DNA from: Urbifossiella limnaea
GTDB taxonomy: Bacteria; Planctomycetota; Planctomycetia; Gemmatales; Gemmataceae
Direction: 5' to 3'
Length of the DNA stretch: 64,000 nt
NCBI RefSeq assembly: GCF_007747215.1
Contig: NZ_CP036273.1
Location: forward strand, 806,001-870,000
The notes beneath the pieces were generated by a model. That model saw nothing but the letters and a program-made list of their open reading frames with translations. It was not told where the DNA came from and made no database searches. The position numbers and the translations under genes are program-made. This document shows, piece by piece, positions 18,270 through 25,788 of this stretch; position 1 is the stretch's first letter, and every line of letters begins with the position of its first letter.

Positions 18270-19928
18270 GTGCGATTGCGGTGGGCCGGAATCGCGTTGG
18301 CCGTCGCGCTCGCCGTCCTGGCGGCCGCGGCCACCCGCGCCCAGGACGACCGCACCGCCCGCGCCTACCACTGGCCGCACCGCAAGTTCTTCATCCCCAT
18401 CGACCCGGCCAACGTCGAGCGGGCCGCCAAGGACAAGGGCACGCCCGTGCCCGCCGCCGTCCAGCTCTACTACTCGCTCGCCAAGGGCCCGTGGCAGGCC
18501 GGCCCCAAGCGGCCGCTCAACGGCCTCGACACCAACTCGGTGGACGGCAAGAAGGGCTTCGACTTCACCGCCGACCGCGACGGCGAGTTCGAGTTCAGCG
18601 TCCAGAACCACTACGCCGACGGCAGCAGCGCGCCCGCGAAGGCGGACGAGCTCGCCACGCAGCTCCGCGTCGTCATCGACAGCACGCTCCCGGCCGTCCG
18701 CGTGAACGTGATCGGCAACGGCGTCGAGTGGTCCGCCGCCGACGACAACCTGGACCCCGACGGCACCCGCCTCCAGGCCAAGTTCCCGAACTGGCCGGAG
18801 TGGAAGACGATCGACGGCCGCCAGTTCCGCGCCCAGGACCAGTACGCCTGGAAACTCCAGCCGGGGCAGGTGCTCGACGTGCGCGTCCTGGCCCGCGACC
18901 GCGCCGGCAACGAGAGCTACTCCGCGCCGGTGCAGGTGCCGGGCAGCGGCGCCTTCAACACCGCCTTCCCGCGGCCCACGACCGGCGGCAGCGACGCGCC
19001 GATCCCCGGCGCCGGCTCGGGCCTGCCGCAGCCGCGCATCGACTACGTGAAGTCGCCGAACTTCGACATCGACTACCGCATCGACAAGGCCGGCCGGTCG
19101 GGCATCGAGGCGGCCGAGCTGTACGTGCAGAAGCCGCGCAGCACCCAGTGGCAGAAGACCGAGCGCTACCCGCTGCCGAAGACCGCGTACACCGGCGACA
19201 ACCTGAAGCTGAAGTACACGGCGCCGGAGAACGACGAGGGGATGTACGGGTTCTACGTGGCCCCGGAGAGCGGCGCCGGCAAGACGGCCCCGCCGCCCGG
19301 CGCGAGCGCCCCGCCGATGGTCTACGTCACCTACGACAAGACGGCGCCGTACCTGCAGATCACCGGCGTCCGCGTCGGGGCCGGCGGGGCGAAGGGGCCG
19401 CTGGTCGAGGTCATGTGGGAGACGTTCGACCAGAACCTGCTGCCGGACCCGGTCAGCCTGTCGTACGCGCTGGCGAAGGACGCCACGCAGTGGACCGAGA
19501 TCCGCTACCGGCTGCCGCCGGGCTCGCCGCGGCAGGACGCCCAGGGGACGCAGCGGCACGTCGGCCAGTTCACGTGGGAGGTGCCGGACGAGAAGCTGTG
19601 GAAGTTCTACGTCCGGGCGCAGTGCGTCGATAAGGCGGGGAACAGCACCACGCACGTGTACAAGGACGCGGTGGTGGTGGACCTGGAGACGCCGGCGGCG
19701 TCGATCACCGGGGTGCGCGGCACGGGCGAGGCGGCGCCGGTGACGCCGCGGCCGATGCCGCAGCCGCAGCCTGAGCCGCAACCGCGGCCCCAGCCGAAGG
19801 CGGACCCGCCGATGACGCCGGCGCTGCCGGAGGCGCCGTCGACGATCCCGCCGGCGGGCGGGACGATCCCGACGGTGCCGCCGATCAGGCCGCCGGCGGT
19901 GCCGGAGCTGCCCGTGCCGCCGGGGTGA
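18270..19928 (+). CDS. Secreted protein of unknown function
   Basis: This 552-residue protein begins with a GTG codon placed six bases after a good AAGGGAGG site and carries a signal peptide (WAGIALAVALAVLAAAATRAQ). The body contains several beta-rich segments that look like immunoglobulin-type or fibronectin-type modules, with phrases such as GKKGFDFTADRDGEFEFSVQN, LDVRVLARDRAGNESYSAPVQ and WKFYVRAQCVDKAGNSTTH. The repeated DRAGN or DKAGN turns and a VDSTLPAVRV-like DTxxP pattern are typical of Ig-like surface modules. The last 70 residues are a proline-rich tail (PQPQPEPQPRPQPK and PPIRPPAVPELPVPPG) that could span or bind the cell wall. No enzymatic motif is seen. It diverges from the cytochrome gene and is followed by a long inverted repeat, so it is probably monocistronic. 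The exported location is supported; the function is unknown. Confidence 0.7.
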   Translation: MRLRWAGIALAVALAVLAAAATRAQDDRTARAYHWPHRKFFIPIDPANVERAAKDKGTPVPAAVQLYYSLAKGPWQAGPKRPLNGLDTNSVDGKKGFDFTADRDGEFEFSVQNHYADGSSAPAKADELATQLRVVIDSTLPAVRVNVIGNGVEWSAADDNLDPDGTRLQAKFPNWPEWKTIDGRQFRAQDQYAWKLQPGQVLDVRVLARDRAGNESYSAPVQVPGSGAFNTAFPRPTTGGSDAPIPGAGSGLPQPRIDYVKSPNFDIDYRIDKAGRSGIEAAELYVQKPRSTQWQKTERYPLPKTAYTGDNLKLKYTAPENDEGMYGFYVAPESGAGKTAPPPGASAPPMVYVTYDKTAPYLQITGVRVGAGGAKGPLVEVMWETFDQNLLPDPVSLSYALAKDATQWTEIRYRLPPGSPRQDAQGTQRHVGQFTWEVPDEKLWKFYVRAQCVDKAGNSTTHVYKDAVVVDLETPAASITGVRGTGEAAPVTPRPMPQPQPEPQPRPQPKADPPMTPALPEAPSTIPPAGGTIPTVPPIRPPAVPELPVPPG

Positions 19929-20458: not shown

Positions 20459-21514
20459 ATGACGCGCCGTCGGCTCCTGTTCACCCTCCCGCTCGCCGCC
20501 GCCCTCCTGGCCGGTTTCGCCGCCCCCTCCGCGGCCGACGACCCGCCGCCCACGAAGGTCGCCGCGAAGATTCCCACCTGGGACGTGGCCCGCACCACCA
20601 CCCCGGGCAGCATCGAAGACCTGAAGGCGCTGGAGCTCGCCACCAAGCGCGTCGTGGACAAGTGCACGCCGGCCACCGTCGGGCTGTTCGTCGGGATGGG
20701 TGCCGGCAGCGGCGTCATCGTCACCGAGGACGGCCTGGTGCTGACCGCCGCCCACGTGTCCGGCGAGCCCGGCACCAAGTGCACGGTCGTGCTGCCGGAC
20801 GGCACCAAGGTGGCCGGCAAGTCGCTCGGCACGAACGCCAAGCTCGACAGCGGCATGATCCAGATCACGGACAAGGCCAAGGCGCCGAACGGCAAGTGGC
20901 CGGTGGTGGAGACGGGCAAGTCCACCGACCTGAAGAAGGGGCAGTGGGTGGTGTCGCTCGGGCACCACGGCGGGTGGCGCACCGGCCGGCCGCCGGTGGC
21001 GCGGCTCGGCCAGGTGCTCACCAACCAGAAGGACCTGATCCAGACCAACTGCACGCTGGTCGGCGGCGACAGCGGCGGCCCGCTGTTCGACCTGGACGGC
21101 AAGCTCATCGGCATCCACAGCCGCATCGGCTTCACGCTGGCGCACAACATCCACGTCCCGGTGGACGGGTTCAAGACCGACTGGGACCAGCTCCTGGCGA
21201 GCGTGCAGGTCGGCAAGGCGAAGGCGCCGCCGGCGGTGTACTTCGGCGCGTCGTTCGAGGACGTCGACGGCAAAGAGGTGAAGGGCGCCAGGGGCGTGAA
21301 GGTGACGTTCGTGGCCGAGGAGGGCCCGGCCGCCGAGGGCGGCGTCCGCGTGGACGACGAGATCACCTCGTTCGACGGCACGGAGGTGAAGACCGCCGAC
21401 GACGTCCGCAAGCTGATCACCCGCCGCCAGCCCGGCGACGAGGTGGAGGTGGTGGTGGCCCGCGGCACCCGCACCGTGACGCTGACCGTGACCCTGGGCC
21501 GCCGCCGGCCGTAA
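20459..21514 (+). CDS. HtrA-type serine protease with PDZ domain
   Basis: This exported protease of about 351 residues has a signal peptide (RRRLLFTLPLAAALLAGFAAPSAA), a trypsin-like domain and one PDZ domain at the C-terminal end. The catalytic triad is intact: His 99 in LTAAHVSG, Asp 130 in KLDSGM, and Ser 205 in GGDSGGPL. The PDZ domain starts near residue 262 with GVKVTFVAEEGPAAEGGVRVDDEITSFDGTEVKTADDVRKLI. HtrA proteases degrade misfolded periplasmic proteins. The TAAHV and GDSGGP strings are closer to trypsin-like S1 members than to the GNSGGP of DegP. The ATG at 20459 has a GGAG nine bases upstream; an earlier ATG at 20438 in the same frame would add only seven residues before the signal peptide. 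The next gene, 56 bases downstream, encodes a related but altered protein, so the two probably form one operon. Confidence 0.9.
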   Translation: MTRRRLLFTLPLAAALLAGFAAPSAADDPPPTKVAAKIPTWDVARTTTPGSIEDLKALELATKRVVDKCTPATVGLFVGMGAGSGVIVTEDGLVLTAAHVSGEPGTKCTVVLPDGTKVAGKSLGTNAKLDSGMIQITDKAKAPNGKWPVVETGKSTDLKKGQWVVSLGHHGGWRTGRPPVARLGQVLTNQKDLIQTNCTLVGGDSGGPLFDLDGKLIGIHSRIGFTLAHNIHVPVDGFKTDWDQLLASVQVGKAKAPPAVYFGASFEDVDGKEVKGARGVKVTFVAEEGPAAEGGVRVDDEITSFDGTEVKTADDVRKLITRRQPGDEVEVVVARGTRTVTLTVTLGRRRP

Positions 21515-21570: not shown

Positions 21571-22686
21571 ATGCGCACCCGCCTGCTCGTAGCCGCGGCC
21601 CTGTCGCTCACCCTGGCGGGGCCGGCCGCGGCCCAGCCGCCCGACGGCGGCAAGCGCAAGGACCGCGGCTCCAGCCCCGACGTGATCTCGGCCCGCCTCG
21701 TCGCCCCGTTCCAGCCGGTCGTGGCGAAGGTGAACGAGTCCACCGTCCGCGTCCTGGCCGACGGCAAGGAAGCGGCCCTCGGCACCGTCGTGTTCGCCGA
21801 CGGCTACGTCCTCACGAAGGCCAGCGACCTGCGCGGCGAGCTGGCCGTCAAGTTCCACGACGGCTCGAACGTCCCGGCCAAGCTGGTGGGCGTCGAGAAG
21901 AAGACCGACCTGGCGCTCCTCCGGATCGAGAAGAAGGGGCTGACCGCGCTGGCGTTCGCCGACAGCAAGGTGGCCGCGCTCGGCAACTGGCTGGCGGCCG
22001 CCGGCGTCGGCAGCGACCCGGCCGGCGTCGGCATCGTCAGCGTGGTGACGCGGAAGCTGTCGCTGCGGGAGCAGAACGAGTTCGACAAGTTGAACGCCAA
22101 CCGCGGGTTCCTCGGCATCACCATGTCGCAGACCCAGCCGGCCGACGGCGGGGCCGAGGTCGAGGCGGTGAGCAAGGGCGGCTCGGCGGAGAAGGCCGGG
22201 CTGAAAAGGGGCGACATCATCCGCCGGGTGAACGACAAGAAGATCGCCGACTCGGACAGCCTGCGCGAGATGCTGAACGACTTCCGCCCCGGCCAGAAGG
22301 TGAACCTGAGCGTGAACCGCAAGGGCGAGGCCCTGGAGCTGTCGGCGACGCTGGCCGGCCCGCCGGCGGACATGAAGAACCAGCGGAGCGACATCCAGAA
22401 CACGATGGGCGGGGCCCTGTCGAACCGCCGCGGCGGGTTCGAGCAGATTTTGCAGACGGACATGGTGGTGGACCCGAAGAACTGCGGCGGCGCCGTGGTG
22501 GACCTGGACGGCCGGGTGATCGGCGTGTGCATCTCCCGCGCGGGCCGCGTCGAGACGTACGTGCTGCCGGGCGAGGTGGTGCGGCCGCTGCTCGCCGACC
22601 TGCGGGCGGGCAAGTTCCCGCCGCCGGCCGCGCCGGTGTCGCTGCCGACGGCCCCGGCCCCGCGGCCGGTCCGCAGCAGCTCGTGA
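21571..22686 (+). CDS. Degenerate HtrA-like protein with inserted PDZ domain
   Basis: This 371-residue exported protein has a signal peptide (LLVAAALSLTLAGPAAAQ) and the outline of an HtrA protease, but the domain order is unusual. The N-terminal lobe runs to GIVSVVTRKLSL at about 165, with the catalytic His position replaced by Ser 85 (LTKASDL) and Asp 113 kept in TDLALLRI. A PDZ domain follows at about 172-265 (GGSAEKAGLKRGDIIRRVNDKKI). Then the second part of the protease lobe resumes with FEQILQTDMVVDPKNCGGAVVDLDGRVIGV, where the serine of GNSGG is Cys 305. It is therefore probably inactive as a serine protease, unless Cys works with another base. It lies 56 bases after the intact HtrA gene and may regulate it or bind its partners. 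A strong terminator hairpin follows. Confidence 0.85.
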   Translation: MRTRLLVAAALSLTLAGPAAAQPPDGGKRKDRGSSPDVISARLVAPFQPVVAKVNESTVRVLADGKEAALGTVVFADGYVLTKASDLRGELAVKFHDGSNVPAKLVGVEKKTDLALLRIEKKGLTALAFADSKVAALGNWLAAAGVGSDPAGVGIVSVVTRKLSLREQNEFDKLNANRGFLGITMSQTQPADGGAEVEAVSKGGSAEKAGLKRGDIIRRVNDKKIADSDSLREMLNDFRPGQKVNLSVNRKGEALELSATLAGPPADMKNQRSDIQNTMGGALSNRRGGFEQILQTDMVVDPKNCGGAVVDLDGRVIGVCISRAGRVETYVLPGEVVRPLLADLRAGKFPPPAAPVSLPTAPAPRPVRSSS

Positions 22687-22962: not shown

Positions 22963-25788
22963 ATGTACGTCCTGATGCAGTGCGTCGCCGAGGCGGTGGT
23001 GGCGAAGGGCGTCCGCGGCCTGGCCGAGATGGTGCCCGGCGGCGGCTTCCTCTACGACGTGGCCAACGAGGCCCACCGCCGCCTCCGCGACCGCAGGCGG
23101 ACCGACCAAATCCGCGAGGAGGTGGTCGCCGTCGCCGCCGCGGGCGTGGACGAGGTGCGCCGCGTGGCCGCCGAGGTGGTGCGCGAGGTGGCGAAGGACG
23201 CCGCCCCCGCCGACCGGGCGGCGCTGGAGTTGTACCTGACGCAAGTCCCCGGCGCCGTCCGCGCCTCGTTCCGCCGCGCCGACGACCCGTCCGGCCGGTC
23301 CGTGCCCGACCAGTTCGCGCTAAACGACGGCGCCGACCTGGCCCGCCGCCTGCCGTCGCGGCTGCCGCACTTCCGCCCCGGCGATCCGCTGCCCGGCCGC
23401 CCCGGGTGGGAGCTCGGCGAGCTGCTCGGTAGCGGCGGCTTCGGCGAGGTGTGGCTGGCGCGCAACCCGTCGCTGGCGGCGCTCAAGGGGGCCGTCAAGT
23501 TCGGCACCGACCCGCAGGCCCGCGAGCGGCTGCTGCGCCACGAGGGCGGTCTGGTCAGCCGGGTGATGGAGGAGGGCCGCCACCCCAACATCGTGCCGCT
23601 GCTCGACGCCTACCTCGAAGGCGCGACGCCGTGGCTGATGTACGAGTACGTCGGCGGCGGCGAGCTGGGCACGCTCATCGGCGCGTGGCCGGTCGCCGAG
23701 CGCGCCGCGAAAGCGGTCGCCGCGCTGCGCACGCTCGCCGCCGCCGTCGGGCACTTCCACCAGCTCCGGCCGCCGCTGGTCCACCGCGACCTGAAGCCGG
23801 CGAACATCCTCGTCCGCGGCACCGCGGCGAACCCGCAGCTGCTCGTCGCCGACTTCGGCATCGGCGGCGTCGCCGCGGACGCGGCCCTCGCGGCGGAAGC
23901 CACGCGGCGGTCGAGCGGCTATTTGGCGTCGCAGTTGTGGGGCTCGCACACGCCGCTGTACGCCAGCCCGCAGCAGCAGCGCGGCGAGAAGCCCGACCCG
24001 CGCGACGACGTTCACGCGCTGGGCGTGATCGGTTACCAGATGCTGACGGGGAAGCTGGACGCGGCGCCGGGGGCCGACTTCGCCCGCACCTTGAAGCGGC
24101 TGAACGTGCCGGAGCCGGTGATCGAGCTGCTCGGCGACTGCGCCGCCCACGACCCCGACCACCGGCCCAAGGACGCCGCCGCGCTGGCCGACCGACTGGC
24201 GGCGCTGGACCGCGCCGCACCGGCGCCGCCGGCGGGGCCGACGATCGTGGCGTGCCCGACGTGCGCGGTGTCGCTGCGGTTCCGGGCCGGGGCGACGACG
24301 CTCCGCTGCGCCCGCTGCGGCACCGTGTTCGACCCGTCGGCCACGGCCGCGCCGCCGAAGCTGTCAGTGGTGCAGGCGGAAGTCGCGCCGCCGCCGCCGC
24401 CACCGCTGCTGCCGGTGGCGACGCTCCGCCGCCGCGAACCGGACCGCCCGCGCCGCCGCGAGCGCGAGGAGGAGCCGGAGCGGCAACCGCGGAGCAGCAC
24501 GACGCCGCTGTGGATCGCCGGCGCGGCGGTGGGGGCGGCGCTGGTCGTCGTCGTGATGGTGGTGCTGATCCGCGGCCGCGGCCAGACCCTGCCCCCACCC
24601 CCGCCGGTCGAAGCAACCGTGCCCGGCACCATCCCGACGCCCGGCGTCCCGGGCCGGCCGCGGGGCGAGGCCGGGCCGCTCCGCTACTTCCGCGACTTCA
24701 CCTACGCCCCGGCCGGCGCCGCGAAGGTCTTCCGCCACACGCCCGACGGCACCGCGTTCATGATCGCCGACGCCGCCGGTACGGTCACGGTCGTCGGCCT
24801 CGACGGGAAGGAACAGCTGCGGCTCGACACCACGATCCGCGACTTCCGCCCGGTGATGTTCCCCGGCGGGGTCGGGATGCTGGCCGCGGCCGCGCGGTTC
24901 GGCCCCCGGGCGTCGCCGTGCGTGGTGCCGCTGGCCGCGGGCGCCGCGGCGGTGGAACTGGTCGGCCTCGGCGAGCAGCCGACGGCGGTGGCGGTGAGCC
25001 CGACCGGGACGTGGGTGGCCGCCGGCGGCGACGGCGGGTCGGTGACGGTGTGGAATCCGGTGATCCCGACCGTCGGCTACCCGCTGCGGGTCGCCGGCGG
25101 GGAGAAGCCGCACCCCGGCGGCGTGACGGCGCTGGCGTTCAGCCCCGACGGCCAGAAGTTGGTGTCGGCCGGCGGCGGGGCGGTGCGGTCGTGGGCGGTG
25201 TCGCCGAAGTGGACGAGCGACCACGACGCGACGACCGTGGCCGGCACCGTGTTCGACCTCGGCGTGACGGCCGACGGCAAGAAGCTGGTGGCCGGCCTGC
25301 GGGAGCGCGGGATGCGGCTGTGGGACTTCCCGGCGCTCGTCGGCCCGGCCGACCCGCTCGACGGCAAGCTGTCGAGCGCGGGCGGGTTCAAGCGGGTGGT
25401 GTTCGGGTCCGACCCGCCGTTCGGGTACCGGCTGGTCGGCCTGACCGCGACCGGCCGGGTCGGCATCTGGAGCGGCAACCCGCGCGAGCCGTTCGGCCAG
25501 CGCGACGCGGCGGGCGGGAACCCGATCGCGACCGACCTGGCGATGAGCCCGAAGGACGCGAACCTGGTGGCGGCGGCGAACGCCGACGGCACGGTGCTGA
25601 TCTGGCACCTGTTCATGGGCCGCGGCCCGTCGGTGAAGCTGAAGAACTTCGGCAGCCCGGTGGTGGGGGTGAGCTTCTCGCCGGACGGCAAGGTGCTGGC
25701 GACGGCCGAGCAGTCGGGCCGGGTGCGCGTCTGGGGCGACGTGGACGTGACGGCGCACACCGGCTGGACCGAGGTGGCGGCGCCGTGA
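22963..25788 (+). CDS. Ser/Thr protein kinase with zinc ribbon and WD40 repeats
   Basis: This 941-residue protein joins five parts. First is a helical N-terminal region (1-105), with a charged helix REEVVAVAAAGVDEVRRVAAEVVREV. The kinase domain follows (146-415), with GSGGFGEV at 156, Lys 179, HRD at 274-276 and DFG at 297-299. Next is a zinc ribbon with Cys 431, 434, 449 and 452 (CPTC and CARC). A membrane helix lies at 516-537 (WIAGAAVGAALVVVVMVVLI), and WD40 repeats fill the C-terminal third (VTALAFSPDGQKLVSAGGGAVRSW, VVGVSFSPDGKVLATAEQSGRVRVWGD). The kinase would be cytoplasmic and the propeller extracytoplasmic, so it is likely a transmembrane signalling kinase. The ATG at 22963 has GGAG upstream; the open frame extends further but into the conserved 56-bp element. 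Targets are unknown. Confidence 0.88.
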   Translation: MYVLMQCVAEAVVAKGVRGLAEMVPGGGFLYDVANEAHRRLRDRRRTDQIREEVVAVAAAGVDEVRRVAAEVVREVAKDAAPADRAALELYLTQVPGAVRASFRRADDPSGRSVPDQFALNDGADLARRLPSRLPHFRPGDPLPGRPGWELGELLGSGGFGEVWLARNPSLAALKGAVKFGTDPQARERLLRHEGGLVSRVMEEGRHPNIVPLLDAYLEGATPWLMYEYVGGGELGTLIGAWPVAERAAKAVAALRTLAAAVGHFHQLRPPLVHRDLKPANILVRGTAANPQLLVADFGIGGVAADAALAAEATRRSSGYLASQLWGSHTPLYASPQQQRGEKPDPRDDVHALGVIGYQMLTGKLDAAPGADFARTLKRLNVPEPVIELLGDCAAHDPDHRPKDAAALADRLAALDRAAPAPPAGPTIVACPTCAVSLRFRAGATTLRCARCGTVFDPSATAAPPKLSVVQAEVAPPPPPPLLPVATLRRREPDRPRRREREEEPERQPRSSTTPLWIAGAAVGAALVVVVMVVLIRGRGQTLPPPPPVEATVPGTIPTPGVPGRPRGEAGPLRYFRDFTYAPAGAAKVFRHTPDGTAFMIADAAGTVTVVGLDGKEQLRLDTTIRDFRPVMFPGGVGMLAAAARFGPRASPCVVPLAAGAAAVELVGLGEQPTAVAVSPTGTWVAAGGDGGSVTVWNPVIPTVGYPLRVAGGEKPHPGGVTALAFSPDGQKLVSAGGGAVRSWAVSPKWTSDHDATTVAGTVFDLGVTADGKKLVAGLRERGMRLWDFPALVGPADPLDGKLSSAGGFKRVVFGSDPPFGYRLVGLTATGRVGIWSGNPREPFGQRDAAGGNPIATDLAMSPKDANLVAAANADGTVLIWHLFMGRGPSVKLKNFGSPVVGVSFSPDGKVLATAEQSGRVRVWGDVDVTAHTGWTEVAAP

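Follow-up and report, generated by a model that had tools for sequence, protein, structure and literature searches.

Planctomycetota carry a family of HtrA-derived pseudoproteases in which a PDZ domain lies, according to alignment and a predicted structure, inside the protease fold. Adjacency, repeated fusion and co-occurrence tie this inactive module to a live HtrA. The family is confirmed as real. The member described here is encoded in the window, the whole stretch of 64,000 nucleotides of Urbifossiella limnaea DNA that was analysed.

The gene and the place of the PDZ domain

The pseudoprotease gene starts 56 nt past the stop codon of an HtrA gene on the same strand. The features of the two genes are as follows.

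20459..21514, + strand, partner HtrA gene (reading frame, ATG at 20459)
21571..22686, + strand, PDZ-in-L3 pseudoprotease gene (ATG start, 371 aa)
21571..21636, + strand, likely signal peptide MRTRLLVAAALSLTLAGPAAAQ (by eye from the sequence)
21700..22056, + strand, lobe 1 and first strands of lobe 2, aa 44–162 (Trypsin_2 match, model strands)
21817..21825, + strand, Lys83-Ala84-Ser85 at the HtrA catalytic-His motif (alignment of 93 relatives)
21907..21909, + strand, Asp113 at the catalytic Asp position (alignment of 93 relatives)
22039..22053, + strand, Ser157-Val-Val-Thr-Arg161, equivalent of the HtrA L3 Ser and Arg (alignment)
22099..22356, + strand, PDZ domain, aa 177–262, inserted in loop L3 (PDZ_2 match, column counts)
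22384..22440, + strand, conserved return linker RSDIQNTMGGALSNRRGGF (family consensus RGDxQNxMGSxLSxRRTGF)
22438..22605, + strand, remaining lobe 2, aa 290–345, with QTD...NCGG and conserved Arg323/Arg326
22477..22485, + strand, Lys303-Asn304-Cys305, oxyanion glycine lost and Cys at the Ser position (column counts)

The 371-residue protein is likely exported and periplasmic, judging by an N-terminal signal recognised by eye. Pfam matches Trypsin_2 at residues 71–161 and PDZ_2 at residues 179–260 (E 6e-16), and both families are matched in 30/30 relatives. The PDZ retains its carboxylate loop, GFLGI, by column counts. The reading frame stops 26 residues past the protease fold and is without a C-terminal transporter domain.

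The AlphaFold2 model, made with 30 relatives in the alignment, has a mean pLDDT of 90.5 and a pTM of 0.83. VIA-align places model residues 20–323 on the single protease domain of H. pylori HtrA (Z 24.4, 1.7 Å over 170 residues) and on DegS without its PDZ (Z 23.1, 2.2 Å over 174 residues). Since the segments flanking the PDZ superpose on one HtrA domain, the C-terminal segment completes the fold. The first-pass annotation had claimed that a complete PDZ interrupts one degenerate protease fold, a claim that would fall if the C-terminal segment did not pack on the first lobe. The two parts form one HtrA fold in the model, and Pfam and the order of the profile matches bear the claim out as well.

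The protein shares with HtrA/Deg proteins (DegP, DegQ, DegS, HTRA1/2; MEROPS S1C) the two-barrel protease domain (Z 22–24 for the model), the L3 Ser/Arg, an HtrA-type PDZ with a YLGV-like carboxylate loop and likely periplasmic export. In those proteins, however, the PDZ follows the protease domain at the C-terminus, whereas here it is enclosed by the profile blocks on either side of L3. A profile of the 30 relatives matches PDB HtrA chains in the blocks 31–127, 245–302 and then the PDZ, 132–244. The block order is thus swapped, the nucleophile segment coming before the PDZ in the aligned PDB chains and after it in the pseudoprotease. Foldseek aligns in sequence order and reaches a TM of only 0.3, with an rmsd above 10 Å, against whole HtrA chains, as would be expected for a relocated domain. 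Similarity to the Do-family model TIGR02037 is recognisable, but the score is 133.7 bits against a cut-off of 416.2 and is split over 3 broken stretches.

In the model, the final strand preceding the PDZ is formed by residues 152–162 (GVGIVSVVTRK), and the first core strand beyond it by residues 292–296 (QILQT). The equivalent strands are joined by loop L3 in DegP-like chains, and just eight residues separate them in H. pylori HtrA. The DegP-like sequence GIVSAKGRSL aligns with the family sequence GVVSVAARKL, Ser on Ser and Arg on Arg. Position 157 is Ser in 76/93 members and position 161 is Arg in 78/93 (84%). We take these residues to correspond to S276 and R280 of HtrA2, from the shared S-x-x-x-R spacing and the HtrA2 sequences. 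By this alignment and the model, the PDZ is embedded inside the regulatory loop L3, directly after the conserved Ser and Arg. The PDZ had first been described as lying between the two lobes. The insertion stands, but not that location: GIVSVVTRK, which precedes the PDZ, is already part of lobe 2, so that the domain is inserted within lobe 2, and a position between the lobes is ruled out.

The same domain order was sought in relatives and is present in 93 non-redundant planctomycete sequences. Chance is excluded, because both the order and the residues recur among these. A pseudogene or decaying gene was considered and ruled out, as the frame and the invariant residues are kept in the 93 relatives; so was a sequencing or annotation artefact, as the order is the same across many independent genomes. 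The aligned members are the best matches plus hand-picked distant ones, hence not a random sample, and most come from draft genomes. Over the phylum, the family profile matches 122 of 393 sampled genomes at E 1e-20, some of the weakest matches being partial. The counts cover Planctomycetota, on which the searches were centred. A pattern scan of genome contigs with the single protein returned a single close relative; its other matches were two ordinary HtrAs and one confined to the PDZ. No family match was found in a plasmid collection, and a viral fold library gave generic trypsin-like or PDZ matches only, with low TM-scores.

The active site

HtrA/Deg proteins have His, Ser and the oxyanion glycine, whereas the family has lost the His and the Gly, and Cys replaces the Ser. 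At the His position (85), the 93 relatives have Ser in 85 cases, Asn in 4, His in 2, and Asp and Thr in 1 each. Asp is found at position 113 in 93/93, and Lys83, two residues before the His position, is equally invariant. The nucleophile position (305) is Cys in 86/93 and M, V, Q, I or L in the other 7, never Ser; the seven members without Cys still keep Lys83 and Asp113. Position 303, two residues ahead of the nucleophile, is Gly in 1/93 and non-Gly in 92/93. The His-Asp-Ser triad and the oxyanion glycine of HtrA (S1C) are therefore both missing, and the residues read at first pass (Ser85 at the His position, Asp113 retained, Cys305 at the Ser position) are confirmed. A degenerate triad with a non-Gly residue at position 193 marks MamO in the available text of PMC4794232, and by these two features the family is a pseudoprotease.

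Judged from its residues by the usual criteria, the active site is dead. Lys83 probably pairs with the buried Asp113 and so substitutes for the lost His. The strict conservation of both residues suggests a structural pair in place of His-Asp, and such a pair would leave the dead site with a structural role. A different proposal is that Cys305 is a working nucleophile, of a Cys protease, a transferase or a redox site, acting with Lys83, Ser85 and Asp113. The prevalence of Cys305, the complete lack of Ser and the invariance of Lys83 and Asp113 agree with it, as does one member, L024, that unites His, Asp, Cys and the oxyanion Gly. A chymotrypsin-like cysteine protease, though, has a His general base beside its Cys nucleophile. 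Picornaviral 2A and 3C proteases of this kind carry the Cys nucleophile (2A motif) on the same fold as the pseudoprotease and keep the His and the oxyanion Gly, whereas the family is without both. The Cys-based protease raised at first pass is not upheld: the His is absent from 91/93 members, the oxyanion Gly from 92/93, and the Cys itself gives way to other residues in seven that all retain Lys83 and Asp113. We regard a Cys enzyme as unlikely and hold the chance of a working nucleophile to be slim; that Cys305 and Lys83 are so strongly conserved speaks for keeping the reading in mind. A shade slimmer is the chance that Lys83-x-Ser85, Asp113 and Cys305 form a new active site on the HtrA scaffold, gated by the PDZ in L3. 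With the same small probability, such a site would be a Lys-assisted Cys enzyme or a thiol switch, not a dead site.

Still further down in probability, and very improbable in our judgement, is a metal-binding or otherwise repurposed scaffold, like the second role of MamO and unrelated to partner regulation. There is a precedent for such reuse of HtrA folds in MamO, according to the available text of PMC4794232, and the family conserves the His of the QHD motif in 74/93 and Arg323 and Arg326 in 88/93 each. The QHD His is nevertheless Thr in the clade of the window protein itself, and beyond Cys305 and Asp113 the alignment shows no conserved cluster of His, Asp or Cys. The same His was also considered as a substitute catalytic His and ruled out, since it is Thr in the window clade and in several others.

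L024 (L024:1389-2382, + strand, genome G018) is the only member to combine His, Asp, Cys and the oxyanion Gly (KAHEL ... KPGDCGS). It is placed inside the Gemmatales part of the pseudo-module tree and is without an HtrA partner in the upstream stretch examined. From its sequence, L024 may be a reverted or active (Cys) member.

Linkage to the partner HtrA

The partner HtrA of the window has an export signal, a trypsin-like domain, the triad His99/Asp130/Ser205, a short L3 and a PDZ at its C-terminus, in agreement with the intact upstream HtrA reported at first pass. The triad is intact in 89/90 aligned partner HtrAs. The partners (20459-21514 in the window and the partner genes in L001-L104) form an HtrA subfamily whose L3 turn is unusually short and which shares a conserved VVRLGRVL...TDCTLVGGDSGGPLF motif, unlike DegP/DegQ. 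The idea that the partner is without the L3 Arg was dropped, as its L3 is a short turn in which the alignment register is ambiguous.

The HtrA gene lies directly upstream on the same strand in 64/93 members, and an HtrA domain is fused N-terminally in one chain in 23/93. The linkage is ambiguous in 2/93, and in 4/93 no HtrA gene was found within the approximately 1.5 kb examined upstream. On the pseudo-module tree, the fused or separate state changes 7 times, with at least 2 of the changes forced by starred branches. The co-occurrence was counted in 59 relatives: 39 have both genes, 18 have neither, and the two discordant ones fall one on each side (Fisher p 5e-13, uncorrected for shared ancestry). 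Both discordant cases are truncated: in G010 the partner gene is 288 nt from a contig end, and the case in G041 is a 133-aa fragment. G045 and G058 keep both genes, but separated. The suggested tie between the pseudoprotease and its neighbouring HtrA is supported by the adjacency, the fusions and the co-occurrence alike.

In 12 fused chains the spacing is too small for the HtrA's own PDZ, so the entire chain appears to rely on the PDZ of the pseudo-module. The AlphaFold model of a fused chain has a pLDDT of 91.6 and a pTM of 0.64; its domains are confident and its linker is below 50. With this pTM and weak linker, the model predicts no fixed packing of the domains against each other in the single chain. 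L082, L083 and L077 (genomes G119 and G142) are very long chains of 780–1146 aa in which an HtrA, several PDZ-like stretches and a pseudo-module follow one another; in L082 the Cys position is taken by Gln.

The flexible linker in the fused chain is one of the points that favour the main rival to a regulatory subunit, namely an inactive, free-standing PDZ scaffold, a substrate adaptor or a periplasmic chaperone, that works in the pathway of the HtrA without allosteric control. The inactive site and the intact carboxylate loop of the PDZ suit an adaptor too, and the coupling to HtrA would be equally expected. What an adaptor leaves unexplained is the position of the PDZ in L3, right behind the preserved Ser and Arg, and the retention of the protease fold. 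We regard an adaptor as rather unlikely, though it deserves weight.

A proposed regulatory subunit and its precedents

In HtrA activation, the signal is thought to start at the PDZ and to reach the neighbouring subunit by way of loop L3. L3 reads the state of the PDZ in DegS and DegP, as summarised by the authors of the CtpB study (PMC3808539). L3 also relays the signal to the LD loop of the adjacent subunit, with R302 in HTRA1 (PMC5666011), and the L3 residues S276 and R280 of HtrA2 are essential for activity (PMC6172425). A PDZ inside the on-switch loop of an HtrA fold points to a subunit dedicated to sensing or regulation, although what the embedding means for function we infer. We favour, with some reserve, the reading that the inactive HtrA-lineage protein is a sensor or regulator subunit of the HtrA encoded just upstream. 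The two proteins would meet in the periplasm, where the embedded PDZ would bind exposed C-terminal peptides. The binding may move the partner HtrA from a resting to an active state or back, or hand it the substrate; a shift of the partner would be possible because the PDZ sits in L3, the loop that in HtrA trimers signals to the LD loop of the neighbour. Several points go against the regulator: the L3 Arg, at 84%, is not universal, the model of the fused chain shows no fixed packing, four members have no HtrA gene in the upstream stretch examined, and most members come from draft genomes.

An HtrA-derived pseudoprotease paired with an HtrA is already known from MamO and MamE, and MamO is the closest functional precedent. 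In the available text of PMC4794232, MamO is reported to activate MamE-dependent proteolysis, for which it is needed, without catalysis. Like the pseudoprotease, it is encoded with an active HtrA partner and has a non-Gly residue at the oxyanion position 193. The same text gives MamO a Thr at the nucleophile position, where the family has Cys, and a C-terminal transporter domain that promotes MamE proteolysis, which the pseudoprotease is without; unlike here, it describes no PDZ inserted into the protease fold. A MamO profile matches the pseudoprotease at E 1e-8 only. CtpB and other C-terminal processing proteases (S41) resemble it in PDZ placement, as the ligand state of their PDZ directly gates the protease (PMC3808539), but they have an unrelated protease fold, are catalytically active and act in cis.

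In the literature searched, we found no description of a PDZ inside L3, of the Lys-x-Ser/Asp/Cys signature or of the planctomycete pairing. A 2019 survey records many HtrA/PDZ proteins in planctomycetes and, in its available text, does not mention the PDZ-in-L3 architecture. A widespread protease-pseudoprotease pair is revealed in a group noted for such HtrA/PDZ proteins. Evolution has seemingly put a PDZ embedded in L3 on a dead subunit beside, or fused to, a live protease, and the pair is a natural experiment on subunit-to-subunit signalling in HtrA.

Upstream of the HtrA gene, 18270-19928 (+) encodes a 552-aa protein with a hydrophobic stretch at its N-terminus, for which Pfam gives weak Ig/FN3-like matches, all below the cut-offs. 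Directly downstream of the pseudoprotease gene, 22963-25788 (+) encodes a product of 941 aa, taking the Met at 22963 as the start, that combines a Ser/Thr kinase domain with WD40 repeats at its C-terminus.
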